Shown here one piece after another: positions 6,611 through 64,000 of a stretch of DNA of 64,000 bases. A program made the translations under genes and the position numbers. This stretch comes from Tetradesmus obliquus (taxonomy: Eukaryota > Chlorophyta > Chlorophyceae > Sphaeropleales > Scenedesmaceae). The notes under the pieces are model-generated. The model was given only the letters and a program-made list of their open reading frames with translations. It searched no databases and was not told where the DNA came from. Numbering within the stretch: the first letter of the stretch is position 1; the number at the start of each line of letters is the position of its first letter. The DNA is taken from positions 4,083,501-4,147,500 of the forward strand of contig CP126204.1 in the NCBI GenBank assembly GCA_030272155.1, read 5' to 3'.

Positions 6611-9600
6611 TCAAGGATTACCATGATCTTCCCAGGGACTTACAGCTCTGCCCATCAGCAGCCGCCCAAGCTGAATGTTGTGTGGAGCATAGAACGCATC
6701 CACCAGCCGCCTAGCCTCTGGCACAGCTTCATAATACTTGTGCTGTGCTGTCAGCGACTGCCTGTGGCTGGCTGCCCCAGCTGCCTCCATTGCTGCCCAT
6801 CTATCATCTTGCACGTTTCCTGCAAGCCCTAGGAACCGCACTACACGTTTGAGCACAGTCTGTGGCGACCTAAAGAGGTCTTCTGACAGCAGCACCAGCA
6901 GCTGGTCTGGCCCAAAGTGGCGCTGCCATCCTTGCAGGAACACCCAGTACATGCCGCGCAGCACCTGCAGCAGCAGCGCAACACCAAACCAGACCAGCAT
7001 GGCAGCAACAAAAGAAGCTGTTGGGTCCCACAGCCGCAGAGAAACAGAGCAGGTGATGTGGCCGCTGGGTGGCTGAGCACACGTGCGTGCAGCAGCTGAC
7101 GCGCTGACACAGGCAACAGGTGTCTTGCAGCAGCTTGGCGGCAGCGCAGGTGCAAAGCACCTGGGGAGTATGATGACCAGCGCTACAGCAGCGCCACTCG
7201 TAGCAGCCTGAGTTGTCACTCGATTGGCGCTCACCTGGTCACAATGGAAGAACACCTTCTCATTGGCAGTGTCCAAGCTCTCAAACAGCAGCACACACTC
7301 CTCCAGGCTGCCATGCCGCGCTACGCAGCGCTCAAAGGCAGCCACTTGCTCCTTCACAAACGCAAGGAAGCCCTCCGGCCCATCGCCATACCTGCACAGC
7401 ACAGCAGCGCGCAACAGCGCAACCTGTGTTTACGATGCAAGAATGATTCTGCAGGTTGTCTGTGCCTGACATCAGTGTTGGCACCATGGCATGCAGCCAG
7501 GTGCGCATCTTCAGAGGTTTGCCTGTCTCAGGGCTAGCTCCGCACATACACTGTATCAAGACGACCACATCATATCTCGTGCAGGAACAGCAGTGCAGAA
7601 GCGCGCTGTGTCCTGCAGGTGCTGAGGCGGCCAGCAGTCAAACATGTGCATGCAGGCAGTGCTGAGCCTGGCGCCATGCAGTGCTATGGCCCCTCTTGAT
7701 GCAGTGCTATGTCTCCTCGCATGCCACAGTGCAGAGCACTGTCAGCGTGCCAGCGCACAACCAGACAGCTCATTTGCCAGCAGATGGTTGCAATCAGGTT
7801 GCATATGCTGTGCCTACGGTGAGACAGCTACGCGGCTGCCCGGCGAGGATGTGGCAATGCAGGCACGATGCATTGTAACGAGGGTTTTCTGGGCTCATCA
7901 TTTGCAAGTATGCTTCCTGGCAAGCAACAAAGGTAGCAGAATATCGCTGTCATAGGCCAGAGTGTCGCTGCCACCCACTTGCTTGTGTAGTGCCCGTACT
8001 CCAGGAAGGAGCTCAGCAGCCGCTGTGCAGGATCGCGCAGCAGTACAACAAGCTTGGGCACAGCAGCAGCAGCTGCAGCTGCAGCCTGCCGCTTGCTCCA
8101 GCTCCAGCCGGCGGCAGCATTGCCATCAACAGCAGCAGCACCTTCAAGATTGCGGCCACTGTACGCCGCCTTCATCAGCAGTGCAGTGTCGAGCTGCCAG
8201 TGTGGCAGCCTAAGCTTGGCAGCAACCTGTAATCCAGCACAGCAAAAACACAGCACCCTTGGTTACGGCAGCAAATGCTACCAAACGTACTGCTCAAGCA
8301 ACTGTACCTCAAGCCCCTGGGCAGCCATAAACCTTTGCTGCAGCAGCGGCTGCTCCAGCCAACCTAAGAATCAAACAACACGACTTTGTTCCTGATCACT
8401 GCAGCAACACAGACAGTATGTGCAGACATATCGTGCTGGCTGGTGCTGCGCATGGGTGTCACCGGAGCACAGCACACAAATCATGGTACAGTCTCACCGC
8501 ACGGTCAGCATGTGTTGCGTTCTGCCAGCAAGCCTCCAGGCAGTGCCCTAGCTGTGGCTGCTGCAGCCTGCCGGCGCAGTGCTCCTGGCACGGCTGCAGC
8601 GTGCGCAGCCACACACGGTGCCCGCGCAGGCCTGCACACCATCACAAACAACAGCGTAATCATACTGGGAATGAGTGGGCCTAGATTGTTGTTGTCGGCT
8701 AGCAGCCTGCCGGCGCAGCGCTCCTGGCAGGGCTGCAGCGTGCGCAGCCACACACGGTGCCCGCGCAGGCCTGCACACCAGACACAGGAACAGGCGGCAG
8801 CGTGACGGGCGTGAGGGCGCTTTTGATGTGTTGACATGGGGAGGTTTAAATGATCAATTTTTTCACGCTCTCAGCTGGCAGCCTAATGCACTGGCCTGCG
8901 GAAGCACTGATGGCTGCTTGAAGACACTTTCAACTCGCAGGAGCTGGTGTGCTGCTGCTGGGCTGCATGATGCAGCAGCCATGCTCATTGTAACACTCAT
9001 CCTCAGTAGTGCCGACCGGTCACCTGCTGCTGCAAGGTGCAAGTTGTGTCAAGCACTGCAAGCTTTGCCGCCGCACCTGCTGCCATGTAGAATGCAAAGC
9101 TGCTCTCAGAGGCGTCCCCAATCAGGGCGCTGCCTGGCCGCTGCTGTATGAAGGGCAGTGCCCCCTGCAGCTCTGCCATGTAGCTGCTGAGGTTCTTGTC
9201 ATGCTCCGCCCAAAAGTGTGGCCGGGAATTGTGGCCCTGCAAAGCAAAGCAGTGGGGCAGCAGCCGTGCAGCAAATCGTGACACTGCTGCTGCAGCTTTG
9301 ACGTGTAGCTGCTGATATTCTTATCTTGCTCCGCCCAGAAGTGTGGCCGCGGGTTGTGGCCCTGCAAAGCAAAGCAGTGGGGCAGCAGCGGTGCAGCAGA
9401 TTGTGACATTACTGCTGCAGCTTCGACGTGTAGCTGCTGATATTCTTGTCATGCTCTGCCCAAAAGTGTGGCCACGGGTTGTGGCCCTGCAAAGCGAAGC
9501 AGTGGGACAGCAGCCGTGCAGCAAGCTGTGGTATGATACTGCTGCAGCTCTGCCATGCAGCTGCTGAAATTCTTGTCGTGCTCTGCCCAGAAGTGCGGCC

Positions 9601-10902
9601 ATGGGTTGTGGCCCTGTGGTGCAAAGCAGAGGGCAGCACAGATGCAGCATACTTTGACACCAGAACAGCAAGCTGTAGCAGGGAGTTTGCATTGGCTCTT
9701 TGCCCACAACTGTGCCATAAGAGTTTGGCTTGGCACAGGAAGACACAGCAGCATGAAACAGCCACGAGCAGCATATGGCTTGATTCAACACGGCCACTTT
9801 CAACATAATGCAAGCCCATGCCGCTGCCTGGCATGGTCTGAGCAACTTTTACCACAGCTTTCAAGTTTTGTAAGTCTGCAACACTTGCACATGCTCCTCC
9901 TGCAGCTGCACACCTTTGCTATGTCAAGGTGCTGCTCCAGCATGCTGTTAACATGGAGTTTTCAGAGTTTTTAGCATGTGAAGCAGATGGAAGTAGTGCT
10001 GTAGAACAGGTGTGGAACAGGCCATGGGTATGGCCACACTGCTGCTGCCAGCAGATTGCGAGTGCATGCCACTACATGGGATGCGTTGAACATCTCGCAC
10101 CACAGCCATCCTGAGACCTTGATAACCTGTGTGCACGTTGCTTCTGCTCACTGTCAAGGAGATGCGTAATGTGATGCCAACTGACACGGTGTATCAGATA
10201 CAACAGTATGGACACATGGTCTAAGATGAGTTGATGTGTGAATCAAGCAGCGTCGCACCTTTGCTACATCTGGATGCTCCAGCATGCTGTACAGGCTGAA
10301 CGCCCCCGACTGGAACGATCCCAGGATGTAGAAGTACGGCAGACACTGCAGCTCCTGCTCCTGCTGCTGCTGCTGCTGCTGCAACTGCTTAACTGCGTGA
10401 AGCAGCTCTGCACTGCCTTCCAATGCTACTGCTGCTGCTGCTTGAGGGGTCCGGTGAGCTGCAGAGCCAGCATGTGGGCTGCTGTGGCTTGCAGGACTAT
10501 CAGGCTGCTGCTGCTGCTGTTGTGTCGGTCTGTGCCAGCAGGGTGTTTTGTAGTTGGGCAGGAAGCTTGCAGGAAGCTGAGCAATCAAGTCTGGGTCCAG
10601 CTGGACAGCTATGGCATGCAACTGCTGTGTTGTAAGTGCCGCAGCGGCTTTGCCGCCACCTGCAAGCAAGTGGCAGACTCAACAGGCTGGTGCTAAAGGT
10701 TCAAGTAGTTCTTTAGCAACTGGTGTGCTGTGAGAAGCAGCCTGGGGAACGCTTGTTCCTTCCTGTGTGTACCTGCTGCTGGTGGTTGGGTGCCGCTGCT
10801 GCTGTAGCGCCACACAGCTGTAAACTGGCCCAGCAGTGTAACAGCCGCAAGGCTTGCCATGGACACAAGGCATAGTGTCAATAGCCACTGCACTTTCAGC
10901 AT
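6611..10902 (-). CDS. Membrane-anchored sulfotransferase, PAPS-dependent type
   Basis: Seven exons join in phase: 10902-10773, 10659-10259, 9236-9077, 8631-8498, 8226-7979, 7391-7235 and 6964-6611, giving 527 residues. The product starts with an uncleaved signal anchor (about residues 5-30), as in Golgi type II sulfotransferases, followed by a Gln/Ala-rich stem. The 5'-phosphosulfate loop region reads YILGSFQSGAFSLYSMLEHP. The family norm is GxxKxGTTxL, so the usual lysine is a glutamine here. The 3'-phosphate site is canonical (LLRDPAQRLLSSFLEYG). C-terminal segments include YGDGPEGFLAFV, a Cys-containing stretch and DAFYAPHN, typical of carbohydrate sulfotransferases of the CHST15 and algal type. 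By family, it would move sulfate from PAPS to secreted polysaccharide in the Golgi; the missing lysine makes activity uncertain. The ATG follows an in-frame TAG. Duplicate splice boundaries lie before exons 3 and 4. Confidence 0.88.
8695..8790 (-). repeat. Extra copy of the start of sulfotransferase exon 4
   Basis: The TGTGCAG acceptor and the first 25 or so codons of exon 4 (RVWLRTLQPCQE...) occur twice, starting at 8770 and at 8631. Only the 8631 copy runs on to a good donor (GTGAGA at 8497). The 8770 copy follows the same frame to ADNNNL and then leaves homology. Confidence 0.85.
9237..9640 (-). repeat. Three extra copies of the acceptor and start of sulfotransferase exon 3
   Basis: Exon 3 begins at 9236 with GHNSRPHFWAEHDKN. 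Diverged copies of the same acceptor (TTTGCAG or CCACAG) and the next 24 or so codons begin at 9361, 9486 and 9613, spaced 125-127 bp. Each copy then runs back into intron sequence, so none is a complete exon, and the 9486 copy meets a TAA after CTGCAGCAG. The changes are both silent and replacement. Confidence 0.9.
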
Positions 10903-11522: not shown

Positions 11523-15284
<3,762 letters not shown>

Positions 15285-27048: not shown

Positions 27049-30000
27049 ATGAGCTCTGCAGCTCTTGCGTCCTTGCGAGCAGATGCAGGTGCGTAGTGCG
27101 AGCGAAGCTGCATCTGCACCGTCTAGGGCTTGATCACCACAGTACAGCTGCTGCAACCACCTAAACCACTGCCTGGGCGTGCAGTGAGCGACTGGGAGCC
27201 GTGTGCGGATACGTTCTACTGCCAAGAGCACCTTTATGACCTCGGGTGGCAGGATGTGGACCTGGATGTGCAGAGGTGGGCAGGCACATCAGCAGGAACA
27301 GCAACTGTGTGTGCACAAAGCTGTAGCACCTGGCAACTGCATCCCTTGCTTCAGACAAAGTGGGGCAACCTGCAATGAGCAATGAAGACAGCGTCATCAT
27401 CAAGCAGGCAGCTATGTAATCCACATCCCTGTGTCTTCCAGTTGTGCAGTTCTCCACACCTGCCTGGCAGCAGCACGGGATAGAAGCACAGGACCTGTGC
27501 AGCAAATGGCAAACTTAATTATGCCAGCATACAAGCTGAGTTTGCTTGGTGTGCATGATCAATTGCTCACAACCAAGGAGGTACATTGGCTTGTATACAT
27601 ACATGCACACGCCTGCCCTGCTGCTTCCTTGCGTGCCGCTTGCTGCCCTCTGCGCAACTCCGCCGTGCCCTCAACCGCCTTTCCTGCAAGCAGGGTTACA
27701 GCAGCGCCTTTCGGGGGCCCGCTGGCCCTCATGCGTGATGAGTCAGCACTGACAGTTGTGCGCAGCGGCGCACCAGGCGGCAGGCCGGTGGTCCGCATCT
27801 TTAGCTGTGCAGGGCAGCTGCTGGGGTCCTTTTTGTGGGAGGGCGGGAAACTTGCAGGATGGGGCTGGAGCAGCGAGCTGGAGCTGCTGCTGGTGGATGC
27901 GGCAGGAAAGGTAAGCAGGCAGCTGCAGGATGCGGACACCACTTTCAGTGGTGTGTTTAGCAGAGAAGCAGCGGCACCCATGCATGTCAGGGGCTGGAGC
28001 TGCTGCCTGGTGGATGCGGCTGGGAAAGGTGTACATGCAGCTGCAGGGGCATAGACGTAGACAGCATGCGCGGGTTGTAGATATTCTGCTGTGCAAACAG
28101 GGTGGGCGGCCAGAAAAGCAGCAGAGGTTCAGCTGCTTTGTACGCAGCACTGACAGCAGCTGCACACGGGCTGTGTATCTGCGAGCAGCAGGCACCCAAG
28201 CAGCATGTCACGTGTTTCCTGCAAGCTCCGCAGCGCCCCTGACGTGGTACTGCCGTTTGTGATGCCTGCATGCTAACGACTTCCTGCAGGTGTCATTCTA
28301 CAGCATCAGCGGCGCACGCAGCCCCAAGCAAGTCAGCTTTGGACCCGAGCTAGAAGCAGAAGGGGTGTCACATGTGGCACTGTACGCAGATGGCTTGGTG
28401 GTCATGGGCGCCAAGAGCTGCCAGCTGTGGGCAGTGGCAGGCTTGCAGGAGCCTCGTGCTGTGCGCCTGCCACGCATACCTGGGCTGGGAGTCCTGCAAG
28501 GAGGCAGCAACAGCAGCAGCAATGTTGCTGGTGCTGGCGCTGCTGCTGCGGACAGGGAGGGTGGTCAGGACGGCAGCAGCAGCAGCAGTGTGTGCCTGGC
28601 GGTTCTGGAGCCGCGGTTCACACTCAGCAGCGGCTTAGAGGTGGGTGCATGATGAATAAAAAGTGGAGGTGTGGTTGTGCTGATGCGGCGTTGGGCTCTG
28701 GGTATGGGATCGCAACACATGTGCATGTGGCAGGCAGCAGGTGCAGTTCGCGGTGCTAGCCATGGCAGGGGTGCTCATGCTTTGACTGCCGTAAGTGTGT
28801 GTTGCACAGGTGTGCCTGCAGCACCAGCTGCGTTTCAAACTGCGGGCTGCTGCAGCCAGCAAGCAGTTGCTATGCTACCTGCTTGTCGCAGCCTTGGTTG
28901 CCCTGCAAGTGTCTACCGCTGTGTGTATGTGTGAAACTGCGGATGACCTGCAACAGCGCAAGAAAGCATCCCGAGTTCCTGCAAGCTGCTACACCAGCAT
29001 GCCTGGTCTTTAACCCTGCCCCAGCCCTAACAAATGAATCTCTGTGTTTGGTGCTGGGCTGTGTGTTGCTGCTGCTGTGCTGCAGGTGCTGGTTGCTGTG
29101 CGCGACACGGTATGGGTGGTGGATGACCATGGGGCGACAGACCAGCCCCTTCCTGCAGGCTGCGGGGGCGTGGCTGCCATGGCTGTGTCACCCAACGGCA
29201 CATTCGTGGCACTGTCCTGCAATGATGGCAAGCTGCGAGTCATGACCAGCGGTGAGTGAATTTGACCAACAGTGAACAGCATTGACCAGCGGTCAGCAGG
29301 TGCCACCAGTGATGGGGGTGTTGTGTCGCCCAACGGCACCTTTGTTGCGCTGTCCTGCAATGATGGAAAGCTGAGAGTCATGACCAGCGGTAAGTGATTT
29401 TGACCAACAGTGAACAGCATTGACCGGCGGTCAGCAGGTTCCACCAGTGATGGGGGCGTTGTGTCGCCCAACAGCACCTTTGTTGCGCTGTCGTGCAATG
29501 ATGGAAAGCTGCGAGTCTTGACCAGCGGTAAGTGGGTTCGACCAACAGCGAGCAGCATTGACCAGTGGTTCGAAGCTTTGACCAGTGCTGGGGGCGTTGC
29601 TGCCATGGCTGTGTCACCCAACGGCACCTTTGTCGCGCTGTCCTGCAATGACGGGAAGCAGCGCGTCATGACCAGCGGTGAGTGGGTCCGACCAACAGTG
29701 AGCAGGTTGACTGGGGGATGATGGGTTTGACCAGGGTGGATGGTGTTTAACGGTCTTTGGCATCTGAACACTGTGGTCAGCGTTGACCAGCCGTTTGTAG
29801 GTTTGTCCAGGTGGGTAGCATTCACCAGCCTTTGGCAGGTTCTACTGGTGCTCCGGGTGTCCGCTGCTGGCACATGCGCAAATGCTGAACTCTCTTCTAC
29901 CAAAACCACACCACTTTTGTGGCGCGTGCCCCCTCTGGCCTGTCCTGCAGGCTAATCATAACTTGACCCTTTCCTGCCACAACCACCACTGCTATCACTT

Positions 30001-30945
30001 GGTTCCCTCTCCACCACCCTGCAGGAATCGTGCGGCAGGATGCAGCCAGGAGCTGCAACAGGTAGCCCTCTGTTAGCAAGCGAATGTGCTCAAGCCTCAC
30101 ATTCTCATATTTCCCTCCCAACCACCGCCGCCGATGTCTGCTCGCTTACGCTTCTTCCTCCTGCAGACTTCAGCCAGCAGCTGAGTGAGTTTGACAGCCG
30201 CAGCGGCGTGCCGCCTGCATGCATCGCCTGGTGCGGCGTGGATGCTGTTGCGCTGCGCTGGGAGGGTCTGCTGCTGCTGGTGGGGCCGTATGGAGATTGG
30301 CTGAAGCGGCCCTGCCAGGGCGCTGTTGCACTGGTTACAGAAGTGGATGGGCTGCGGATGGTCAGCAGCAGCGCCTGCAGCTTGCTGCGGCGCGTGCCTG
30401 ATGCGCTGGTGCAGGTGCGTGCTTGCCGCAACATAGACGATTGTGTAAACGTCTTTATGCATGCTGCTTGGCTGCTTGAGCGGCGCGCAGCTGCACCCAT
30501 TTCTTTCCATTCTCCATCATGTACGAGTCTGCTTCTGTGCTCTGGGGGGCAGTCCATTGTGGACTTTGGTGGGTTTACTCTGTTGCCAGAAGTGCATGGG
30601 CTGCAGATGGTCAGCAGCACTACCAGCAGCTTGCTGCGGCGCGTGCCTGACACGCTGGTGCAGGTGCGAGCGTTGCAGGTATTCTGTTTAGCTTGCAGAA
30701 ACTATGTGCAGATTGCAGGAACTCTGTGTATATTGGTGCTTGTGCGTGCGGCTTTGTTACAATGAGCTGTGTGGGGTTGTCAGCTGCATATGATGTGGCA
30801 TTCTGGGTGTGAGCGCTGGATGCCTGGTCCTGCTGTGCTGCAAAGGACACTCGTGTGCAGCTCTATGGCGCAGGGCCCCGCCTGCCATGATATTCACGCA
30901 TCCTCCGCCCCCTTGATATGCCTTGTCGATGCTTCTCACAATCCC

Positions 30946-31002
<57 letters not shown>

Positions 31003-34000
31003 GCTTGCTACCGACCAACGCACTGCTACATCTGCAGGTGTACAAACCCGGCTCCACCTCTCCTGCTGCGCAGCTGCTGGACGCGCGTGACCTGTTCGAT
31101 GCAGGCAGTGCTCGTGCTGACAAGCTGCTGCGACAGATGGCGGGACACCTGGCAGAGGCGGTTGAGGGCTGTGCAGCAGCTGCAGGTGAGATACTGTGGA
31201 GCATGCATGCTGCATGTGCTGACAAGCTGCTGCGGCAGATGGCGGGACACTTGGCAGAAGCTGTGGAGGGCTGTGAGGCAGCTGCAGGTGAGACAATGTA
31301 GAGTGTGCATGCTGCATGTGCTGATAAGCTGCTGCGGCAGATGGCGGAACACTTTCGGCAGAGGCGGTTGAGGGCTGTGCAGCAGCTGCAGGTGAGATAA
31401 TGTAGAGCATGCCTGCAGCATGTGCTGACAAGCTGTTGCGGCAGGTGGCGGAACACTTGGCAGAGGCTGTCGAGAGCTGCCCAGCAGCTGCAGGTTGGGC
31501 AGTGATGGCAGCACCCACTTGCAGCATGTGCTGACAGTATATCTGAAGACTGCCGCTTTGGCACTGCTGTGTTGCTGTGTGCGCACTCGCACACGTGCAC
31601 CTGCCTGTCAGCATGCATGCTTGCATGCAAAGCGAGCTGCTGCTGGGCGCCCGCATAGCACAGCAACACCCCATGCGCTCTGCAGTCCCTGCCTTGAACA
31701 GACAATGTTGTCTGGTCATCCCAGCAATCCCAGAGCTTGAGCAGCCTGTTCCGCTGCTCTGCTCTTGACAGATAAAGATGTATTCTGCATGTGAGCGTGC
31801 AAACGAAGTGATCTGGAGCTGATGTATGCAACCAGCTGTAACTGCGCTGTAATCTTTGCCTCTCGCCGCAGGCCTGGACCTCTCTAAAACCAGGCAGCCG
31901 ATGCATGCATGCATGCATGTGTGATCATTATGCAACAAGACCTTATGCTCGCCTATCCAGCAGCTCTCTGAATTAAACTACCTTTGCCTCTCGCCGCAGG
32001 CCTGGACCTCTCCAAAACCAGGCAGCCTATGCATGCATGCATGTGTGAACACTACGCAACAACACCTTATGCTGGCCTATCCAGCAGCTGTCTGACATGA
32101 ACTACCTGTGCTTCTTGCTGCAGGCCTGGACCTCTCCAAAACCAGGCAGCCTATGCATGCATGCATGTGTGAACACTACGCAACAACACCTTATGCTGGC
32201 CTATCCAGCAGCTGTCTGACATGAACTACCTGTGCTTCTTGCTGCAGGCCTGGACCTCTCCAAAACCAGGCAGCGTGCGCTGCTGCGCGCAGCGGTGTTT
32301 GGCCGCGCCTTTGCGCCGAGCGTGGCAGCGCCGCTGCTGCGGGAGACCGCGCAGCGGCTGCGGCTGCTGAATGCGCTGCGGGAGCCCGAGGTTGGCCTGC
32401 CGCTGACGATGCCGCAGCTGCAGGCGCTCAGTTTACCCGTGGTCGTCAACAGGTGAGGGTCGAAAAGCTCAGACTGAGTTTTTGGCTCAGTGTGTGTGGC
32501 TGCTGGATGCGCTGCGGGAGCCGGAGGTTGGCCTGCCGCTGACGATGCCCCAGCTGCAGGCGCTGAGCCTGCCTGTTGTGGTCAACAGGTGAGTGATGCG
32601 GGTTAAGTTTTATGGTTGGGGGTTAGGCTGCCGCCGCTTGATGTGAGCAAGAAATACGGCCTGCTGCTGACGATGCCCCAGCTGCAGGCGTTGAGCCTGC
32701 CTGTTGTGGTCAACAGGTGAGTGATGCGGGTTGAGTTTTATGGTTGGGGGTTTGGCTGCCGCCGCTTGATGTGAGCAAGAAATACGGCCTGCTGCTGACG
32801 ATACCCCAGCTGCAGGCGTTGAGCTTGCCTGTTGTGGTCAACAGGTGAGTGATGCATATTTGTGTTTTGGGTTCTGACTGCGGCTGCTGAATGCGCTGGG
32901 GGAGCCTGAGGTTGGCCTGCCGCTGACGATGCCACAGCTGCAGGCGCTGAGCTTGCCTGTTGTGGTCAACAGGTGAGGGTTGGAAAGCTCAGGTTTTTTT
33001 GGGCTCAGTGTGTGTGGCCGCTGGATGCGCTGCGGGAGCCTGAGGTTGGCCTGCCGCTGACAACGCCTCAGCTGCAGGCGCTGAGCCTGCCTGTTGTGGT
33101 CAACAGGTGAGGGTTGTTCATGGTTGGATTCAGTCTGCGGCTGCTGAATGCTGCGCTTCAAGAGCCTGAGGTTCGCCTGCCGCTGACGATGCCGCAGCTG
33201 CAGGCACTCAGCCTGCCTGGTGTGGTAAACAGGTGGGGGATACGTCCCTGAGGTACGTGGTTTGTAAACCTGGCTCAGGAGCAAGGGTCAATGCCTCACC
33301 CTAATTTTGCACCTGCTTACTGCCTTCCTGCTGCTGCCCCTGCTGCTGCGATAACATCCCAGGCTGGTGCTGCTGCGGCAGCACCTGCTGGCCTACAAAG
33401 TTGCTGAAGCATTAGGCGGGTCAGGGCAGCAGGAGGTGCTGCTGCACTGGGCAGCAGCAAAGATCAGCGCCAGCCCGGCTGTGCCTGACTTCGCCCTGAA
33501 AGAGGCGCTGGCTGCAAAGATGAGTAAGCTGGAGCGGCCAAAGTACGCAGCGCTGGCGGCACATGCGCAAGTAAGGATGGCTCGGCAGCTGCGGGAGTAG
33601 ACAGCTGTGTGTATGTGTGGAGGGAAGGGGCTCACGTGACTGGCGTCAGCAGATGAACTTTTGACATATGCGATGCATAGCACTGGTTGGTGGTTGGGGT
33701 ATGTACTGCCCCGAAGATCAGCGCCAGCCCTGCTGTGCCTGACTTTGCCCTGAAAGAGGCGCTGGCTGCAAAGATGAGAAAGCTGGAGCGGCCAAAGTAC
33801 GCAGCGCTGGCGGCACATGCGCAGATGTGAATGTGTGGTGGCTGCTGCACCCTGACTAGGTATTTATGCTTGGATGCAGCGGGTAGCTGATGAGGCAGGA
33901 GGCAATGGTATCATGCAGCTTGCTCAGGCAGTAGGCGTTGATGACAGCACGGTTGTTCAAGCACTGGCGGCACATGCGCAGGCAACCACCCCTGCTTTCC

Positions 34001-36102
34001 CAGCAAAACGTCGCACACGATACCGCCTGAGTGTCACATTCTGTTGCCGGTTTTCATATTGTTGCAGTCTGTGGGCCGCCGCAGCCTGGCCATCAAGCTG
34101 CTTGAGGAGGAGCCATCTGCAGCGCAGCAGGTGCCGCTGCTGCTCAGCCTGGCAAAGACAGCTGGCATCAGCAGCAGCAGCGGCAGCGGCGCAGCAGCAG
34201 CAGGGGATGAGGCTGGTGGGGCAGAGGACACCCTTGGGCGGGCGCTGCTGAAGGCGATTGTGTCTGGAGACCCAGACCTCGTTTACCTGGTGCTGTTTGA
34301 AGCGTACAGGTGGGCGGTCGTGTTTTCTGGTATTGTGTAGCCCAATGCACAAGGAATCTAGTGGTGACGCTGCTCGAATGTGGAGTGCCTGGTGTTGGGG
34401 CACCTCATGGTATTCGAGGCATACAGGTGCAGCGCAGAGCACTGTGTACACACTGTTCTGCACAACCTAAGAAGGACGTTGCCAGATGTATGATGCAGAA
34501 GCACCCAGCATCATCAGCTGTGATGGGGTTTGCATGTATGCCATGCAACAGGACTGCGCCGCTCATCTATTCAACGATGTTGACAAGCTGTATTCAGAGC
34601 TAACAGCACTGCTGCTGCTCCTGCTGTGTTGTGCATGTGGCTCGTGTGTTTGCTGCTGCATGCAGGAGCCGGCCTCTGCCTGAGTTCTGGAAGCTGGTGT
34701 CACCACGTGCAACAGCCAGGAAGCTCTTCGTGAAGTTCACACGGCTCAAGGTGAGGAGCAGTGACACACACAGCAGGAACATGGATTGCGTGGGTTCACC
34801 CGGGTTTGGGTTGTGTCCGCGCGCAACAGCCAGGAAGCTCTTCGTGAAGTTCACACGGCTCAAGGTGAGGAGCAGTCACACCAACAGCAGGGGAGTTGAT
34901 GGCGTGAATCATTGGTTAGAGTCATTGTTGAAGTTCAAACAGCTGAGGTGACACAAAGTCAAGCAAAAACAGCATGGCACAGGGCTCTGGTAACTCGCCT
35001 AGGTCAGCGTTGTTGCAGGCCCACAGCCAAAAAGCTTGTCGTTAGCATTGGTTTCCCCGCACGTAGTCCTTCCAACTAAGCACCGCTACTGCTGCTGCTG
35101 CCATGGCTGCCACTGCAGGAGCCGGAGCTGCTTGAGACGCTGTATGTGACGCAGCAGCTGCACCAGGAGGCTGCTGACCTGGCACTGCCTCATACTGCAT
35201 ATGTTTTCACTGCTCACTGCTGCTTCTGTTGCTGCTGCTGCTGCTGCTGTCCCCTTAGGAGCCAGAGCTGCTGGAAACGCTGTACGTGACGCAGCAGCTG
35301 CACCAGGAGGCTGCTGACCTGGCGCTGCTCATACTGCGCAAACTTCCAGCCACCCACTGCTTCTGCTGCTGCTGCTGCCGCTGCTGCTGCTGCTGCCTCT
35401 GCAGGAGCCGGAGCTGCTGGAGACGCTGTGCGTGACGCAGCAGCTGCACCAGGAGGCTGCTGACCTGGCACTGCTTATACTGCGCAAACTTCCAGCCATC
35501 CACTGCTGCTGCTGCTGCTGCCACTGCAGGAGCCAGAGCTGCTTGAGACGCTGTATGTGACACAGCAGCTGCACCAGGAGGCTGCTGACCTGGCACTGGA
35601 GTCAGCGCTGCGGCACCTGGTGCCACACGGTGCTGCTGCTGCTGCTGCCAGGCCTGATGAGTCTGAGGTGGCAAAGGCCATCAGCGGGCTGCAGGCAGCA
35701 GCGCAGAAATACACGCACGTGAGTCAGCAAAGGGTTGGAGTCAGGAAGTGCACATCAAACCAACCAGCATATACGCCTGGGTGCCTGGCTCCAAGCATAG
35801 CTTCAGCTACAGGCATGCGGCTTTGCAGCTGCAATGGACTGTGCCTAGATCAGACTAGGTGTTGGACGTGCCGCCCTTTGATTGTTAGCCTTCCGCCTGC
35901 TGCCGCTTGCCCTGCTGCTGCTGCTGCTGCTGCTGCAGTGTCGTGATGCTGCCTGGCAGTCCAAGGCTGCTACTGAGGCTGCTGCGCTGCTGAAAGAGCA
36001 GGTATGTGGCACTGTGCCTACATGATCTGTTACATAATCAGCGACTGGAAGCGCAGTGCGCTTGTGTTCTCAGCATACTCTCTTTGTTGCGGCAGCATCT
36101 CT

Positions 36103-36133
<31 letters not shown>

Positions 36134-36529
36134 TGGTTATCATCATCTGAAGCTGGAGCACAGCACCGGCCAGTTGCTGTGCCTGGGGCTGAGCGCCTGC
36201 CTGTCTGCCTGCCTGTCTGCCTGTCTGTCTGCCTGTCTGTCTGTCTGTCTGCCTGCCTGCCTGTGTGTCTGTCTGTCTGCCTGCCTGCCTGTCTGCCTGC
36301 CTGCCTGCCTGCCTGCCTTTTGAGCTGCAGAGCAAGCTGGAGCGTGACGCCGGCCAGTCTCTGTTTGTGGGGCTGAGCACCTGCCTGTCTGCCTGTCTGC
36401 ATGCCTGCATGCCTGCCTGCCTGCCTGCCTGCCTGCCTTTTGATCTTCAGAGCAAGCTGGAGCGTGACACCGGCCAGTCTCTGTTTGTGGGTTCAGCTCC
36501 TCCATGTCCAAATGTGTGCTTGCTTATCT

Positions 36530-36567
<38 letters not shown>

Positions 36568-38650
36568 TTGTTTGCCTGCTGTTACACTTCAGGCCAAGCT
36601 GGAGCGTGACACCGGCCAGTCTCTGTTTGTGGGTTCAGCTCCTCCATGTCCAAATGTGTGCTTGCTTATCTCCCTGCCTGCCTGCCTGCCTGTTTGTTTG
36701 CCTGCTGTTACACTTCAGGCCAAGCTGGAGCGTGACACCGGCCAGTCGCTGTTTGTGGGGCTGAGCCTGGCTGACACCATCGCCACCTGCCTGCGCCTGG
36801 GGCACGCCAAGGCTGCAGCCAACCTGCGCAGGTGAGAGTGCGGGCTTGACGGTATCGATTGTGCTGCAGCTGGCATTTGCACATATGACTGCCGCAACTT
36901 TTTTTACGTTTATAACGTCGTCTTGATCGGCGTGGGTGCTGTCCTTCGATACACAGCAAGCTGTAGCTCAAGCACGCTGGTACTGGTTAAATCATGAGGG
37001 CCCTGCCTTGCGCACCTGACTGCTGCGCTCTAACATTTGCCTTGCTGTGGCTGCTGCCCTTGCTTCGTGCACACACACTGCAGCAGGTTTGCTGTGCCTG
37101 AAGCGCGCTGGTACTGCTTGGTTGATCCATGGGGGCCTGCCTTGGACACTGACTGCTGCCACCTGAACCTTGCCTTGCTGTGGCTGCTGCCCTTGCTTCG
37201 TGCACACACACTGCAGCAGGTTTGCCGTCCGAGGCGCGCTGGTACTGGGCCGAATGTGGCGCCCTGCAGCAGCACTGCCGCAATCTTCATTGCCCCGCCT
37301 AATGTATGCGTTGCTGCTGCCCTTGTGTCGTGCACACATACTGCAGCAAGTGTGCTATGCCTGAGGCGCGCTGGTATTGGGTCAAGCTGGGCGCGCTGGC
37401 AGCAGCACATGACTGCCGCAATCTTCATTGCCCTACCTGATGTATGCGTTGCTGCTGCCTGCGTTTTATGCAACATTGCAGCAAGTTTGCTGTGCCAGAG
37501 GCGCGCTGGTGCTGGGTCAAGCTGGGCGCGCTGGCAGCAGCACATGACTGCCGCAATCTTCATTGCCCTACCTAATGTACGCGTTGCTGCTGCCCTTGTC
37601 TGATGCACCACTGCAGCAAGTTTGCCGTCCCAGAGGCGCACTGGTACTGAGTCAAGCTGGGTGCGCTGGCAGCAGCACATGACTGCCGCAATCTTCATTG
37701 CCCTACCTGATGTATGCGTTGCTGCTGCCCGCGTTTTATGCAACACTGCAGCAAGTTTGCTGTGCCAGAGGCGCGCTGGTACTGGGTCAAGCTGGGCGCC
37801 CTGGCAGCAGCACATGACTGGGAGGCCCTGGATGCGTGGGCAGGGGAGCGCAAGAGCCCCATCGGCTGGGAGCCCTTCCTGCAGGCAGCACAGAAGCATG
37901 GCGCACCTCGCGAGGTGCAAGCCAGGTAAGAGGGAAGGATGCACAGTTTTCACTGCAGTTTGTGTGGTCCATAGTGAAGATCGGTGCTGCTGGTGCCGGG
38001 GAGCGCAAGAGCCCCATCGGCTGGGAGCCTTTCCTGCAGGCAGCACAGAAGCACGGCGCACCTCGCGAGGTGCAAGCCAGGTGGGCAAAGGCTTTTGTGT
38101 TGATGTTTGGTGGATACTGCGGCGTGTTTTGGGGGCCAGGGGTATAGTGCCTGCTGTGGAGGGCTGCGACACATGCAGTTTGTGACTGTGCTCGCGGTGC
38201 TTGTTGGTGGTTTAGGGTTTAGGAACTTTCTCCCTGGTGCATGCGGTGCCTTGTTGGTGGTTTGCGGCGCGTTGTCAAGGAGGTGTGCTGCTAGGGAGGT
38301 GCAGCACAGGAGCTGTGTCCGCGAAGCCGTCTGGGCAAAGAGCTGTTGCGGGGTAAAGTGGTAGTGGTTTGGCGCGGGCAGTGTGAGCGGGGGTTGCAGT
38401 GTCGGGATCTCTTGCGAAACGAAATGGCTGGCGGCGCAAGCTGCTTCCGCGCATGCCTGAAGGTCGTTCCCAGACAAACGCTGACGGGGCTTCCTCCCGC
38501 AGATGCAACCTATGTAACAACCAACCTGATTGCTTCTGTGGCTGCTGCAGGCTCATTGCCCGCACGCCAAACAGCCGCGCCAAGGCAGACGCCTACCAGG
38601 CCATCTCATGCAAGCCACTGTGCATGACATGATGTCTAACAGCAAGTGTA

Positions 38651-38682
<32 letters not shown>

Positions 38683-38880
38683 AGGCTCATCGCGCGCATG
38701 CAGGACAGCCGCGCCAAGGCAGACGCCTACGAGGCCATTTCATGCCCCAGGGAGGCAGCCGAGGTGGCAGCTAAGCTGAGAGATGGGGACCTGTTGGCGC
38801 GCATCCAGGGCGCTGTGTCAGCCAACAGCCCTGCAGGCATTGCAATTGCACAGATACGCGAGCGCTTCCAAGGGCGCTGA
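27049..38880 (+). CDS. VPS16: VPS16, core subunit of HOPS/CORVET vacuolar tethering complexes
   Basis: Sixteen exons join in phase: 27049-27088, 27143-27275, 27694-27910, 28290-28640, 29086-29251, 30167-30414, 31038-31185, 32248-32452, 33363-33570, 34068-34309, 34666-34750, 35530-35718, 35939-36001, 36719-36831, 37752-37925 and 38685-38880. They encode 925 residues; relatives have about 840, the excess being Ala/Ser-rich inserts. The N-terminal beta-propeller part shows DTFYCQEHLYDLGWQDVDL, AAPFGGPLALMRD, SFLWEGGKLAGWGW, AVSPNGTFVALSCNDG and WCGVDAVALRWE. The helical C-terminal part shows YKPGSTSPAAQLLDA, GDPDLVYLVLFEA, ERDTGQSLFVGLSLAD, EARWYWVKLGALAAAHDW and RKSPIGWEPFL. By family it joins VPS18, VPS11 and VPS33 to tether membranes at late endosome and vacuole. 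Nearly every intron contains extra copies of its own boundaries, so exon choice at several places needs transcript data. Confidence 0.93.
27985..28028 (+). repeat. Copy of the end and donor of VPS16 exon 3
   Basis: The exon end (LELLLVDAAGK) with its donor at 27911 is repeated in intron 3 as CTGGTGGATGCGGCTGGGAA followed by AG|GTGTAC at about 28029. The offset is 118 bp. Confidence 0.8.
29252..29690 (+). repeat. Three tandem copies of the end and donor of VPS16 exon 5
   Basis: The 19 or so codons ending in RVMTSG and the donor are repeated after the exon. Donors start at 29252 (real), 29390, 29528 and 29678. Between copies lie TTGACCA-type repeats and an AG. Copies 2 and 3 can be read as 90-base cassette exons (29300-29389 and 29438-29527, phase 1 at both ends). 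Copy 2 differs from the exon by six silent and no replacement changes in 19 codons. Confidence 0.92.
30553..30663 (+). repeat. Copy of the end and donor of VPS16 exon 6, a possible cassette exon
   Basis: The segment HGLQMVSSTTSSLLRRVPDTLVQ repeats the exon 6 end and keeps its donor (CAG|GTGCGA at 30664), 249 bp after the real one at 30415. An AG at 30551-30552 would make a 111-base cassette exon, phase 0 at both ends and free of stops. Confidence 0.8.
30946..31004 (+). repeat. CTG microsatellite before VPS16 exon 7
   Basis: About 19 CTG units stand in the sense direction, about 35 bp before the exon 7 acceptor at 31037. Such tracts stand where a pyrimidine tract would be expected. Confidence 0.9.
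31186..31500 (+). repeat. Three tandem copies of the end and donor of VPS16 exon 7
   Basis: The coding segment ADKLLRQMAGHLAEAVEGC and its donor recur with donors starting at 31186 (real), 31288, 31392 and 31494, spaced 102-104 bp. The first three keep GTGAGA; the last has GTTGGG. The third copy has lost frame. Confidence 0.92.
31860..32247 (+). repeat. Three tandem copies of the acceptor and start of VPS16 exon 8
   Basis: The acceptor CGCAG or CTGCAG plus the codons for GLDLSKTRQ begin at 31872, 32000, 32124 and 32248 (real), spaced 128, 124 and 124 bp. After nine codons each copy enters a GCATGCAT repeat and then the intron. All four acceptors look usable. Confidence 0.93.
32453..33240 (+). 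repeat. Six tandem copies of the end and donor of VPS16 exon 8
   Basis: The exon end LREPEVGLPLTMPQLQALSL through VVVNR and its donor occur seven times, with donors starting at 32453 (real), 32589, 32717, 32845, 32973, 33107 and 33233 (period 126-136 bp). The first copy differs from the exon by eight silent and one replacement change in 27 codons. Two units can be read as in-frame cassette exons (32627-32716 and 33134-33232). Confidence 0.94.
33700..33990 (+). repeat. Copies of the end of VPS16 exon 9
   Basis: The segment from KISASPAVPDFALKEAL to AALAAHAQ is repeated at 33715-33823 without the original GTAAGG donor. A short remnant, ALAAHAQ, stands at 33963-33981. Confidence 0.85.
34400..34427 (+). 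repeat. Copy of the end and donor of VPS16 exon 10
   Basis: The exon 10 end (LVLFEAYR) and its donor at 34310 are repeated as a shorter piece ending GCATACAG|GTGCAG at 34427. Confidence 0.65.
34751..35060 (+). repeat. Copies of the end and donor of VPS16 exon 11
   Basis: The exon 11 part ATARKLFVKFTRLK with its donor GTGAGG recurs 114 bp downstream (donor at 34865). Two decayed copies lie near 34930-34947 and 35020-35045. Confidence 0.8.
35100..35529 (+). repeat. Three tandem copies of the acceptor and start of VPS16 exon 12
   Basis: The codons EPELLETLYVTQQLHQEAADL, preceded by an AG, begin at 35119, 35259, 35405 and 35530 (real). Over 23 codons the three copies differ from the real exon by ten silent and one replacement change in total. 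CTG tracts fill the spaces between units. Confidence 0.94.
36096..36718 (+). repeat. TGCC-type microsatellite mixed with copies of VPS16 exon 14 start
   Basis: The exon 14 start (KLERDTGQSLFVG) is repeated at about 36147 (AG lost), 36331, 36451 and 36593 before the real exon at 36719. The gaps are filled by TGCC/TGTC tetranucleotide repeats, which give false reading frames rich in Cys, Leu, Pro and Ala. Confidence 0.92.
37084..37751 (+). repeat. Five tandem copies of the acceptor and start of VPS16 exon 15
   Basis: The start KFAVPEARWYWVKLGALAAA with its CTGCAG or TTGCAG acceptor begins at 37084, 37217, 37347, 37482, 37617 and 37752 (real), period 130-135 bp. Unlike the exon 12 array, several copies here are broken by a stop or a frame change. 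Confidence 0.93.
37990..38345 (+). repeat. Copies of the end and donor of VPS16 exon 15
   Basis: ERKSPIGWEPFLQAAQKHGA through EVQAR and its donor recur, with the second donor (CAG|GTGGGC) at 38081, 155 bp after the real one at 37926. A decayed third copy may lie near 38275-38345. Confidence 0.85.
38540..38625 (+). repeat. Copy of the acceptor and start of VPS16 exon 16
   Basis: An acceptor CTGCAG and the codons LIARTPNSRAKADAYQAISC begin at 38551, 134 bp upstream of the real exon 16 start at 38685. Confidence 0.88.
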
Positions 38881-41014
38881 GGCATGCTCAAGGCGTCCGC
38901 ACGGGAAGAGGGTGAAGCGTGCTGTGTGATGCCAGCAGTGGTGGCGGTGGCAGCATGCTGGTAGCATGCCGTGTCTTGTGTTGGGTTGGTTGTCGGGCCA
39001 GGCAGCCCAGCTGGGGCTGAGCTGCTGGTCAACTTTGGCCCAAGTTGGTGATGGGGACCCGCTGGCGCGCATCCAAGGCGCTGTGTTAGCCAACAGCCCT
39101 GCTGGCATTGCCATTGCACAGATACAGGAGCGCTTCCAGGGGTGCTGAGGCAGGCTTACGTTGCAAGACTTGAACGCATAAAAACTAGTTGTGTGTACAA
39201 CGCCAGCCGCGGCTGAGGCTAACAGCGCGGCTCGTGTCCTGTTGCGGTTGCTAGTTGGACAGACGGTTTAACCGCCTGATCAGGTGCTTGTCATTCTTGA
39301 CTCAGAGGGCGGGTTCTGCTGCTGGCGCGCATCTAAGGCGCTGTGTCACCAGACAGCCCTGCAGGCATTGCCTTTTCGCAGATACGCAAGCGCTTCCAGT
39401 GGCGCTGCGTGGGGCTATTACACCCCAAGTCAAGGGTTGCTCCGGATTGAGGATATGTACTACTGCCTGCTACTATTGGTCAATGAACTTGCAAAATGGG
39501 CTGTGGCGCGGAGCCAGCAGCGGTTGAGGACGGTTTGTGCTGCTGAGCAGTGTGCTGCTTGTTTGACGCAACCTCAAAATCCTTGCAGGCTGCAACTTGC
39601 AGCAGGCGGAGTGCGACATGCTGTTTGTTTGTGTGACATGCTGTTTGTTTGTGTTGTGGCGACGCGCCGCAGCAGGCAGCAGTATTTGCCAGTGGCCCTT
39701 GGGGTGGCGTGTGGTTTCAGATCTGCATGCAAGCTTTCTGGTAACATAGCGCTTTGGTAGACAGCGCCATAGGCTGTGTGTTGCGAGGAAGCTACTGATG
39801 TTGTTGTTGGCCGTCTAGCTATGCACATGTGAGTATGCACTATGTTGTGTTATGCTTATGCTTGTAATGAATGCAAACGGCAACTTTCTTTATATGTTGG
39901 GTGCTGCCTCTGCACTTACTGGTGGTACCAGGCTGCTGTTGCACTGTGCAACGAATTCAGGCACTGCAGTGCCAGCTGGTGTTCGCAATAGGGAAGGTGG
40001 CACATAAGAGATTTGGTGCTCAAGGGTGTGCATTGTGTTTTGCAGTGCTCACTCTCCTTTTCTGGTCTCTGACCTTGTGTTCAACCTGTTGTGGCTCGTA
40101 CCATCGAAGATGGTGCCAGGACCCACATGTATCTATCCTCTCTCTCAAACAAACTGACACTGTCAGCACTACGATTGAGCCGTCAGCCTGCAGGCTGGCC
40201 ACTGATGCTTGTTGTGTACAGCGGGCGCTGTGCCGCCATACGCCAGCCTGTTTTGCGCCGCAAACGAGGCCAATTCATGTTCAATTTCCGGTAACCGCCT
40301 GGTGTGATCTTTGCAAAGCTGGACATTGACAGAAGGTATGAGATAATGCACCTGTTGCAAGCTGGCAATTGGCAATAGTTACTGAGTATGACAGGTCTGA
40401 GCTTCACAATCCGCTCCACTGGAAATTTTGTCATGAAGACACAACAATGACCGTCCTGTGCGGTCTCTAAGATAAATAATGCTGAGCACCGTCAAAGAAT
40501 GCCCAAAAAATACTGGACAAACAAAGGCAAGCTGTGCACCTTCATAGTCGCTAGCAGCAACAACTGCTGAACCAAGAGGAACGTGTCAAGTGCTGTTCAG
40601 GAGATGACACAACCTCAGGCAGTACCGCATTGCCAGCAACTGGCAATACAGTGGATTCCAACACAACCAGGCTGCAAGAAAGAAAGAAGAAAGAAGAAAT
40701 AAGCTTGCCAATCCTCAACGTCTTGTTGTGAAGACTCATGTTGCTGCTACTGCAGCAGCTGCTAGTCTATGCATGGCTGTGCAGCGTGCTGATGCTGCCT
40801 GTACTGGAACACGGTTCGGTCGTGTTACGCAGGCGTTCAAATGCTGTTGTATCGCACCCACCCTGTGTGCAACTGTGATCACCACTACATGCACCACTGT
40901 TCTCAGTGGTTTCCAAAGCAACCAACTCGTGTCTGCGCATGTATCAGCCGTAAATTGTAGTGCTGCTCCTTTCACAGCCACACCCAACACATTCTTGTGC
41001 TGTTCACTCCAAAT
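38881..41014. other. Gap between the convergent VPS16 and cysteine-rich genes
   Basis: The first 520 bp hold the VPS16 terminal copies. TGTAA at 39863-39867 may be the poly(A) signal for VPS16. A short GAAA/GAAG purine tract lies at about 40676-40700. I support no other gene here. Confidence 0.5.
39035..39405 (+). repeat. Two copies of the VPS16 terminal coding segment in the 3' flank
   Basis: The last 35 or so codons of VPS16 (DGDLLARIQGAVSANSPAG... to the stop) are repeated at 39041-39148, with stop TGA, and again in decayed form at 39320-39405. The duplication habit of this gene therefore reaches past its stop codon. Confidence 0.88.
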
Positions 41015-47638: not shown

Positions 47639-49269
47639 TTAGTTGCCTGGCACAAACTTGGTGGCGTAGTTCCAGGCGTTGTTGCCGGATGGGTCGCTCA
47701 GGTGGGCGTCCAGGTTGGCAATGGGGCCCTGGCCGGTCACGATGGCCTGCACGAAGAAGCCGAACATGCTGAACATGGCCAGGCGGCCGTTCTTGATCTC
47801 CTTCACCTTGAGCTCAGCCAGGGTGTCGGGGTCGTCAGCCAGGCCCAGGGGGTCAAAGGCACCACCGGGGTACAGGCTGTCCAGGTCCTCGCCGAAGCCG
47901 CCTGGGGCACCACCGTTGGCGCGGTAGCTCTCAGCGGCACCCATCAGCAGCACCTGCAGCAGGGAGCAAAGCAGGAGCAGGCAGCAAGGACAGACGGGTC
48001 AGTTGAACAGTTGGTGAACATGTTGGTACTGCTAATGCTGCAAGCAGATACCTGTTGCTGGACATCCTGGCAATGATTTGCAGTCATCGCTCGGCTGCTA
48101 TCATCATACACCAGTAGCTGCTGCCACCTGCTGATGCTGCTGTTGCAACTGCACATGCTATTGCTGCTGCGCTGTGGCCAGTTTGACAGGCTGCCAGGTG
48201 GACAACTGCTGCCACAAAGCACTTTGACTCAAGGCCAGACAGCTGTATGGAGTTTCAAGGCTGGAAAGGAGTTGACTTGCAGGACAGCTGCTGTTGCCTG
48301 GACCGGGTCCCAACTGCTGAGCTGGACCTTTGACATGTCTGCGGCTGCTGCTGCAGGACCAGCTGCTGCTGCTACTTGCTGGCAGTAATGTGCTGCTGCA
48401 GGCAAGCCCAGGCACCCACCTGGACGGCCAGGGTTGCCAGGATGGACTGGGCGTGCACCAGGTTCTCGTTGCCCAGGTAGTTCAGGCCACCGTCCTGGAA
48501 GATCTGGGCACCGGCCTTGAACCACACGGCCTCACCGAAGGGCACGCCGTTCTTGGCCAGCAGCTCGGGGGTGATGCAGCCCAGAGCGCCGAGCATGGCC
48601 CAGCGGGCGTGGATCACCTCGATCTCCCTGTACTTGGCGAAGGTCTGGGGATCAGCGGACAGGCCGGCAGTGTCCCAGCCGTAGTCACCGGCGAACTCGC
48701 CAGTGAGGTAGGCGGGGGTGTCGCCCTCGGAGAAGGGGCCTGCGGGGCAGGAGGGGCAGCAGCAGCAAGCAGATCGTGTCGGACATGGCTCAACCGTGAT
48801 CGACGAGGCAATACAAGATCTAGGCCTGCAGCTGCTTGAAATAGCATGAAATAAACGTATAGCTGCTATTTTATCTAAAAGCTGGCCGAGAACGCTGCTG
48901 AGGAGTGCGCTGCTGGTGAGGAACGTCGAGCAGGTCCGTAGCAACGCCTTGCCAGCTGCTGCAGGCTGCACTCACCCAGGAACTTGGGCCTGTCGGGGCC
49001 ATACCACTCAATAGCGGCGCGGGTCACCTGGCGGGTGGCCTGTAGAAGCAGAAAGCAGGGCGGAACGGAGGAAGGACTGAGTCAGCATCGCTGGTGTTGC
49101 TGCAAGCGCGTCGATCTGCCCTGGATCTCATGCGTTATATGTTTAAGAAGCAGCTGCTAAGCTTTTGCAGGTGGGCTGGGCTATGTAGCTGATGCTGGGT
49201 GAAGGGGTGAGTGCTCACCCTGGTTGCAGCGGCCTTGGTGGCCACAGCCTGCTTGAGTGCGAATGCCAT
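47639..49269 (-). CDS. LHCBM: LHCII major chlorophyll a/b-binding protein, copy 3
   Basis: Four exons (49269-49219, 49039-48976, 48739-48420, 47953-47639) encode 249 residues. Reading exon by exon, the protein appears the same as copy 1 (19351-20950), with WYGPDR and the same helices. Exon phases and the absence of the fourth intron also match copy 1, and intron 3 is recognisably similar in both. The promoter, leader and start of intron 1 instead match copy 2. The gene is therefore a mosaic of the two types, best explained by gene conversion or an unequal exchange. It stands in inverted orientation about 27 kb from copy 1. Confidence 0.97.
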
Positions 49270-62585: not shown

Positions 62586-64000
62586 ATGGCCACGTTCATA
62601 GATACTGTGCAGCGTTTTCGCAAGATCGAGGAAGCAACGGCTCAAAAGGATGATCCAGCTCCAGTTGTAAGTGGGATGCATGCAGCTCGAGGCTCTGGTC
62701 AGCAGCAGACCTCTCACGCACCTCTGCTTGTTTCTGGACGCAGTATCTGCTGGACGAGATAGCCGATATGGCACGTCAGTCACCAGAGCAGGCTCAAGCC
62801 ATCTCAGATGCAGTGCTGAAGAAGCTGCAGGTCAAGTCCCCTGTGGTTAAGTTCAAGGTGCGTGGGCTCACGCAGCGCCCTGCATGGCATGTCGTCTTGA
62901 ACCGAAGGATTCAGATGAACTTTGCTCAACGCAGGCGCTGAGGATCATCAAGCACCTGTGCGTGAAGGGCTGTTCCCAGTTCCAACGATGTATGCAGCGT
63001 AATTCTTCTGCTGTCAGGTGAGCGTCTACCCGCAGCACTTTGCCACTTTTGAATGGCCCAGCTGTTGGTTATACTGCATCAAAAGGGCTAGCAAGCTCAT
63101 GCAGTGCAGCTGCAGTGATCAGGGAGGTCAACTGCTTCAACAGCACCGCTGCTGTACACCCAGAGCAGCATGCGCATGCAATGGGAGGCAGCAGCTGCAG
63201 CTTGCGCAAAATCAGCCACCAAGCACACTATTTGCATGCCTGGTGCTGTTCCTGCAAGCGCTCATTCCGCTGTTATTCGCTCTTCATTGTTTGTTTTGCA
63301 CCAGGTGTACCTAACGACCCGCACTCCTGACTAGCAGAGTGCCTTGTTTTTCACAGCATGCAAGTTGGCCGATGTGTGCTGAATCCATGGACCAGCATGT
63401 GCACGCTGTCCTGCAGGGAGCTGATCCACTGGAGGGGCGAGCCAGATCCCTTCAAGGGTGATGTACCCAATGCGCGTGTGCGTGAGTTCTCAAAGGACGT
63501 CGTGGAGGTGCTCTTCAACTCCGCTCCCATCACCAACACCAACAACACACTGGCAGCGCAGGTATGTAAACTGAGCATCATACTCAGATTACCAATCACG
63601 CCTTAGCAATGACGCCATCAGCCCCTCTGTCTCGCTGTTCTGGGGCGTTGCCTGGTCTTGCATGCTGTTTTGTTGTCTGTTTGCTGTGTTTCCGCTGCTG
63701 TTGTGGCTCTAGGGCAAGATCCAGGGCTGTTGGCGGCGGCGGTCCTGACGAGGCAGCATGCAGCAGCAGCAAACACTGCCTGGTCAAACATGCTTGTATG
63801 TTTCTCTCTCCTGTTTCTCTGCTTTATGCCCGTCCAGGGCAAGATCCAGGGCTTTGGCAGCGGCGGCCCTGGCGAAGCAGCAGCCCGCAGCAGCAGCGGC
63901 CACTACGGCGGCATCGGCAGCAGCGGCAGCAACATGGGCAGCGGCAGTTACAGCGGAGGCTTCCGCAGCAGCGGCAGCAGCGGCCTGGCAGCAGCGCAGC
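62586..64000 (+). CDS. ENTH-domain protein of tepsin/MTV1 type (3' end outside window)
   Basis: Five exons join in phase: 62586-62666, 62744-62857, 62935-63017, 63417-63561 and 63838 onward. The N-terminal ENTH/VHS-like domain reads FIDTVQRFRKIEEATAQKDD, YLLDEIADMARQSPEQAQAI, FKALRIIKHLCVKGCSQFQR and WRGEPDPFKGDVPNARVREF, ending LFNSAP. The GPPDPLHG-like loop (here GEPDPFKGD), followed by VREF and VLF, is typical of tepsin and plant MTV1 rather than epsin. These proteins are accessory subunits of AP-4 or clathrin coats at the trans-Golgi network. The open part then becomes Gly/Ser-rich, as in a disordered adaptor-binding tail. The first ATG in frame starts right at the domain. A copied acceptor lies before exon 5. 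Confidence 0.87.
63700..63750 (+). repeat. Copy of the acceptor and start of tepsin-like exon 5
   Basis: An acceptor (CTCTAG) and the codons GKIQG begin at 63713, 125 bp upstream of the real exon start at 63838 (GKIQGFGSGGPGEAA). The copy soon runs into a stop in the exon frame. Confidence 0.85.

Follow-up and report, generated by a model that had tools for sequence, protein, structure and literature searches.

Introns in a 64 kb stretch of the genome of the green alga Tetradesmus obliquus (G000:C14:4083501-4147500, hereafter the window; the assembly comprises 104.7 Mb in 17 contigs with a GC content of 0.575) carry extra, diverged copies of the exon edges that adjoin them. The main case is the gene for VPS16, where 35 such copies, 17 donor-side and 18 acceptor-side, were found in 10 of the 13 introns, and it is not confined to the window. 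The copies probably originated in duplications across exon edges that were tolerated through splicing at the outermost site, the inner copies then drifting, and repeated small duplications of this kind look like a major route of intron growth in this genome.

VPS16 was identified on the forward strand by three-frame translation and a PDB search; the output of an unsupervised gene finder, which had fused the window into two spurious genes, was discarded. The 867-residue frame matches the solved VPS16 chain 8dit_B (E=1.8e-114) in three stretches that cover most of both sequences, and each exon segment is present once in this match. When the genome was searched with the protein, all 31 matches fell at the same single locus, so that there is no paralogue from which the copies could have come. 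The gene and its arrays are as follows.

27695..38880, forward strand: VPS16 gene, 14 exons with GT-AG introns and one 867-aa open frame matching 8dit_B, start codon not located
27695?-27910, 28290-28640, 29086-29251, 30167-30414, 31038-31185, 32248-32452 and 33363-33570, forward strand: VPS16 exons 1-7
34068-34309, 34666-34750, 35530-35718, 35939-36001, 36719-36831, 37752-37925 and 38685-38880, forward strand: VPS16 exons 8-14
27871..28047, forward strand: donor-side copy, intron AB
29164..29734, forward strand: donor-side array, intron CD, 3 extra copies, period 138
30326..30676, forward strand: donor-side copy, intron DE, offset 249
31099..31536, forward strand: donor-side array, intron EF, 3 extra copies, period about 103
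31854..32286, forward strand: acceptor-side array, intron EF, 3 extra copies, period 124-128
32349..33244, forward strand: donor-side array, intron FG, 6 extra copies, period 128-136, exon parts alike and tails mostly at the random level
33460..33823, forward strand: donor-side copy, intron GH, 97% identity over 110 bp, offset 254, copy without GT
34698..34891, forward strand: donor-side copy, intron IJ, offset 114
35085..35650, forward strand: acceptor-side array, intron IJ, 3 extra copies, period 143
36103..36799, forward strand: acceptor-side array, intron KL, 4 extra copies interspersed with TGCC repeats
36960..37820, forward strand: acceptor-side array, intron LM, 6 extra copies, period about 133
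37833..38082, forward strand: donor-side copy, intron MN, 97% identity over 88 bp, offset 155
38448..38779, forward strand: two acceptor-side copies, intron MN
38782..39407, forward strand: array of 2 extra copies at offset about 268, running across the VPS16 stop codon into the 3' end, where the exon edge has no splice site

The copies were found by local alignment of exon edges against the adjoining introns and accepted if they outscored the highest of 40 dinucleotide shuffles of the intron by 2 units or more, a threshold that no copy passed in introns BC, HI and JK. They form eight donor-side and five acceptor-side splice arrays, each with the one to six extra copies that an earlier reading of the window, made from the sequence only, had described. 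All are partial exons (for example the last 93 of the 174 bp of exon M, or 110 of the 208 bp of exon G) with an identity to the exon of 0.70-0.98; these differences, together with the recurrence of such arrays at random loci on other contigs, argue against an assembly artefact as far as this can be judged. The exon alignment extends exactly to the junction in 27 of the 35 copies, and the intron tails are at least 0.10 above random in 16 of the 35 exon-copy pairs, the remaining pairs sharing little or no intron sequence. Where the tails do align, the copied unit is that of a tandem genomic duplication across an exon-intron boundary.

Tests on the side predicted for a boundary-crossing duplication were positive in 13 of 26 cases (8 of 13 for 3' exon halves searched in the downstream intron, 5 of 13 for 5' halves in the upstream one), as against 1 of 26 on the opposite side (none of 13 and 1 of 13) and 2 of 312 in non-adjacent introns. 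The dispersal expected of introner-like elements was likewise not seen: besides the low count in non-adjacent introns and the single VPS16 locus, array CD, the one array searched genome-wide, occurs at a single genomic place. The array at 38782-39407, whose unit runs from the last part of the VPS16 coding sequence through the stop codon into the 3' end, is what a process blind to splicing predicts.

A second gene of the window, encoding N-acetylglutamate kinase (NAGK), was anchored on the reverse strand through PF00696 and the chains 2rd5_A and 4usj_A, and shows the same layout in three arrays with six copies in total.

11800..14400, reverse strand: NAGK gene, partial exon map made by eye
13848..14163, reverse strand: acceptor-side copy of exon b, AG retained
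13016..13540, reverse strand: acceptor-side array at the start of exon c, 4 copies, AG at the expected position in 1 of 4
12393..12614, reverse strand: donor-side copy of the end of exon d, GT retained

In all 16 arrays of VPS16 (13) and NAGK (3) the outermost position is occupied by the complete exon, as had been proposed from the sequence. The same source had counted more than 20 arrays in six genes. Self-comparison for local repeats, in which shorter-period repeats, some of them purely intronic, were left uncounted, does give 30 arrays in the window (4.7 per 10 kb), and the 16 in the two anchored genes have the described layout; the rest of the count is less secure, since 13 arrays lie outside these genes, one VPS16 array spans the stop codon, and the arrays at 2995-3321 and 3783-3999, inside one 1371-aa open frame, look like protein repeats.

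How far the phenomenon extends was gauged from a random sample of twenty 10-kb stretches drawn across all 17 contigs, in which 67 arrays were found in 200 kb (3.4 per 10 kb), five of the 20 stretches containing none. Over window and sample together 58 of 97 arrays have offsets of 100-159 bp, much as the sequence-only reading had put it. Its description of the units as tandem holds less generally, for in 52 of the 97 (37 of them from the random sample) the similar stretch is shorter than 0.9 of the offset; such pairs are called spaced here and all others tandem. The offset peak at 100-160 bp is common to both kinds. The sample also holds long satellite-like arrays unlike the short exon-edge arrays (L017:1-6039, offsets 274/351; L020:7337-9953, offset 108), and in stretches L018 and L021 one long open frame, perhaps belonging to mobile elements, recurs within 10 kb without arrays by the self-comparison criteria.

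Five random stretches were searched with Pfam, one strand each. In L012 an OPR/old yellow enzyme gene (PF00724; 1vji_A, E = 4.2e-18) has five arrays within 1-4400, all at exon edges whose limits were set by eye, and in L006 all three arrays in 800-3600 lie at exon edges of a gene for glutamate-cysteine ligase (GCL; PF04107). No family was found in L016 (reverse strand) or L014 (forward strand), and only UBA domains in L011 (reverse strand), so these three enter the family-free statistics alone. Three genes with RNA-polymerase Rpb2 domain 6 were selected by family, without prior sight of their DNA, and with the threshold relaxed to 35 bp and E 1e-4 they yielded 15 arrays in 13.3 kb, of which eight overlap the end of a Pfam-placed exon and a ninth starts one base past the Pfam row, the other six being exon-edge-like or ambiguous by eye. 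Independently of any family, a splice motif at or above the 99th percentile stands at the end of homology in 10 of the random sample's 37 spaced pairs, against 1.5 expected.

In bulk the copies decay close to the expectation for a free copy beside a constrained exon. Differences between VPS16 exons and their copies number 109/67/203 at codon positions 1/2/3, with 196 synonymous and 183 non-synonymous changes (uniform change would give a synonymous fraction of 0.27), and the copies of NAGK, OPR and GCL show 61 synonymous to 57 non-synonymous. The pooled 49 copies (257 synonymous, 240 non-synonymous) thus give a fraction of 0.52, somewhat higher than the 0.43 that our arithmetic predicts for such a free copy without transition bias, or about 0.5 with it. 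The spaced pairs behave similarly: 39 of them, the 52 less 15 in-frame protein-repeat candidates and 3 pairs with fewer than three differences but with five of the 15, exon-edge pairs of VPS16, GCL and OPR, retained, are distributed 219/120/81 by codon position against 212/132/76 for a free copy (P 0.18), whereas two constrained copies do not fit; without those five, the 34 remaining pairs give 191/108/74 against 188/117/68. Differences show a three-base periodicity in 44 spaced pairs with at least four differences (z = 7.0) and z = 0.34 in 38 tandem pairs, protein-repeat candidates being included. The GT or AG is retained in 40 of the 49 copies, about the 39 that we calculate from divergence, so that inner splice sites appear to be neither detectably purged nor preserved. 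The splice dinucleotide is therefore a usual part of the unit, as the sequence-only reading held, with nine losses as exceptions. Any extension of its suggestion of redundant splice sites to a selected feature finds no support in retention at about the level of drift.

These observations would fit a simple course of events. Many local duplications of about 100-160 bp would arise in this alga, perhaps through break repair with fill-in or through slippage, and those across an exon edge would be nearly harmless if splicing in vivo keeps the outermost donor or acceptor and leaves the inner copies as intron. Re-duplication and unequal exchange within arrays could then raise the copy number, while the inner copies would on the whole drift without coding constraint. 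VPS16 contains 8582 bp of intron DNA, of which extra copies account for an estimated 4676 bp (54%; copy number times period), leaving 3906 bp without them, so that introns in such genes may have roughly doubled in this way; the proposed route of intron growth is to this extent supported.

Several observations weigh against this account in its plain form. Each of the 13 splice arrays in VPS16 crosses a junction, against 61% (p = 0.0017) under a position-blind null in which intron lengths were corrected for extra copies and duplications either crossed one junction or lay within an intron. This is an excess over position-blind duplication, but only a moderate one, and copies anchored to an exon can be recognised for longer; for these reasons no mechanism specific to junctions is claimed. 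Strong donors in the random sample fall within the first 10 bp of a copy's intronic end 12 times against 1.0 expected, a further four times at 10-19 bp, and never beyond 50 bp from the end of homology (both copies of each pair being counted); acceptors are less sharply placed, numbering 4 at 0-9 bp and 5 at 20-29 bp (1.5 expected in each interval), with a total of 14 against 15.9. Several of the youngest spaced pairs share, by eye, only 0-10 bp of intron. That homology should halt just past the splice site is not predicted by plain tandem duplication. The exon part is, moreover, better matched than the tail in 31 of the 35 exon-copy pairs. The same holds for 40 of 49 comparisons between intronic copies, although drift should affect both parts equally there. 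Constraint is also hinted at by codon positions: the 11 youngest spaced pairs (identity of at least 91%), a subset chosen post hoc, give 38/8/3 (P 0.0003 for a free copy, 0.08 for two constrained copies), and the 14 VPS16 copies of at least 0.90 identity, again chosen post hoc, have 38 synonymous to 20 non-synonymous changes compared with 158/163 in the rest (p 0.023). Among intronic copies, variable changes (47/34/75) show a third-position excess over drift (p 0.0002), as do changes confined to a single copy (33/24/49, p 0.012; of these 106, 47 are synonymous, p 0.0002 relative to uniform change), transition bias not being modelled in either case. The youngest pairs and the third-position counts thus lean to constraint. 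The clustering of donors at homology ends and the junction-crossing of the VPS16 arrays set these arrays apart from ordinary minisatellites, whose units are unrelated to gene structure. Parts of the misfit could be accounted for by exchange between exon and copies or by the joining of diverged alleles.

The first of these, gene conversion in which the constrained exon serves as master and exchange is limited to the exon part since the tails have diverged, may well have contributed, although on balance we lean against it, and it would supplement duplication with drift more than replace it. It would suit the ending of homology just past the donor, the offset peak common to spaced and tandem pairs, and above all array FG, whose intronic copies have exon parts at 0.83-0.97 and yet 14 of 15 tails at 0.58-0.71 (random 0.57-0.65), at a period that is still 128-136; exchange between exon and copy might underlie this likeness of the exon part alone. 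The FG copies are, however, closer to one another than to the exon, array LM contains pairs of the opposite kind, one with identical tails and an exon part of 0.76, and conversion alone does not yield the mainly third-position differences of the youngest pairs. More tentatively still, exon edges might in general act as constrained masters that seed and re-edit copies in their own introns, duplications starting or persisting preferentially there and stopping near the splice site, with concerted evolution of a large share of intron DNA as the outcome.

A second possibility, that in a hybrid or highly diverse alga unequal exchange between homologous chromosomes set the exon edge of another allele and its different intron beside the resident one, seems to us unlikely. 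It would explain at once the unalignable tails and the concentration of differences at one codon position in the youngest pairs, but young pairs are not uniformly diverged, the tails of many pairs are plainly homologous, and VPS16 occurs at one locus only in the genome, although a collapsed assembly would hide an allele. Still less probable is that the pairs are recent introns born from a duplicated AGGT-bearing exon segment: a few short spaced pairs (for example L005 4838/4951) can be read so by eye, but copies in VPS16, for example those of introns CD and FG, finish well short of the next exon. A codon-model test of pair flanks separated coding from intron sequence too weakly to sort the pairs. 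Copying from spliced mRNA was set aside, as the GH copy is by eye not continued by the sequence of the next exon and spaced and tandem pairs share their offset distribution. A role of the copies as functional exons, whether alternative or mutually exclusive, is very improbable. Some copies do retain open frames and splice sites, and there is a third-position excess among them. Yet the VPS16 donor-side copies are partial and begin inside the exon, those in GH and MN lack (by eye) an acceptor at their start, and 35 of the 52 spaced pairs have offsets not divisible by three; gaps that shift the frame build up along with non-synonymous changes, and the homologous VPS16 contains each segment once.

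A few further features of the DNA may be recorded. Several acceptor sites (31038-38685 and the NAGK introns) read CTGCTGCTGCAG, CTG/CAG repeats here merging with 3' splice sites, and this merging may supply microhomology for duplications. Elsewhere in the window, a weak match to the sulfotransferase domain PF00685 (E 7.3e-05) lies at 6822-6970 on the reverse strand, with arrays at 8563-8780 and 9165-9660 nearby; at 41000-46640, also on the reverse strand, cysteine-rich frames with many exons are secreted- or receptor-like in appearance, with 10-bp repeats at 45289-45425; and the similar open frames at 19651-20380, 24210-24891 and 47642-47998 presumably encode light-harvesting chlorophyll a/b proteins, judging by their motif.

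Intron lengthening is usually ascribed to mobile elements and unspecific insertions, and the AGGT duplication model of intron gain is said to go back to Rogers in 1989, Gao and Lynch in 2009 and Hellsten in 2011. The view that the arrays belong to no named class or mechanism was too strong, since tandem genomic duplication is counted among the recognised ways in which introns change (PMC3443670) and a duplication crossing an intron-exon boundary is presented as the source of an intron in the potato RdRp gene (PMC4974935). The AGGT model shares with the arrays the duplication of splice motifs and the tolerance afforded by splicing, but there an exonic segment is duplicated to give a new intron, whereas the unit in the alga crosses an existing junction (PMC3443670). 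The potato case likewise reuses inherited splice signals, but it is one event with one new intron, whereas the alga has multi-copy arrays in many introns of several genes that lengthen introns and leave the protein seemingly unchanged (PMC4974935). Polyubiquitin UBC, with dual-specific AGGT sites, also has a tandem array with a splice site in each unit; its units are coding monomers included in variable number, in contrast to the inner copies here, which in bulk look non-coding (PMC10809524). Small tandem duplications by break fill-in are a general source of short tandem duplications, but they were shown in mouse and human cells with engineered overhangs and are not tied to exon edges (PMC8355091); as a mutational source in the alga they are plausible. 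No description of genome-wide exon-edge arrays was found in the literature titles and abstract openings searched, most subscription journals lying outside their coverage; boundary-crossing duplication is known from single cases, and its occurrence on a genome-wide scale seems to be new.

Since each copied piece can be tied to an exon of a conserved protein, the source of intron DNA can here be read directly, gene after gene. The arrays are internally controlled records of duplication, splice-site decay and possible exchange between exon and intron, and at the same time a natural test of how the spliceosome bypasses as many as six decoy sites that lie close by and share the exon context. Introns of Tetradesmus obliquus average 462 bp, as against 230-302 bp in four other algae, in a published comparison (PMC5966456), and exon-edge arrays may help to explain this length.

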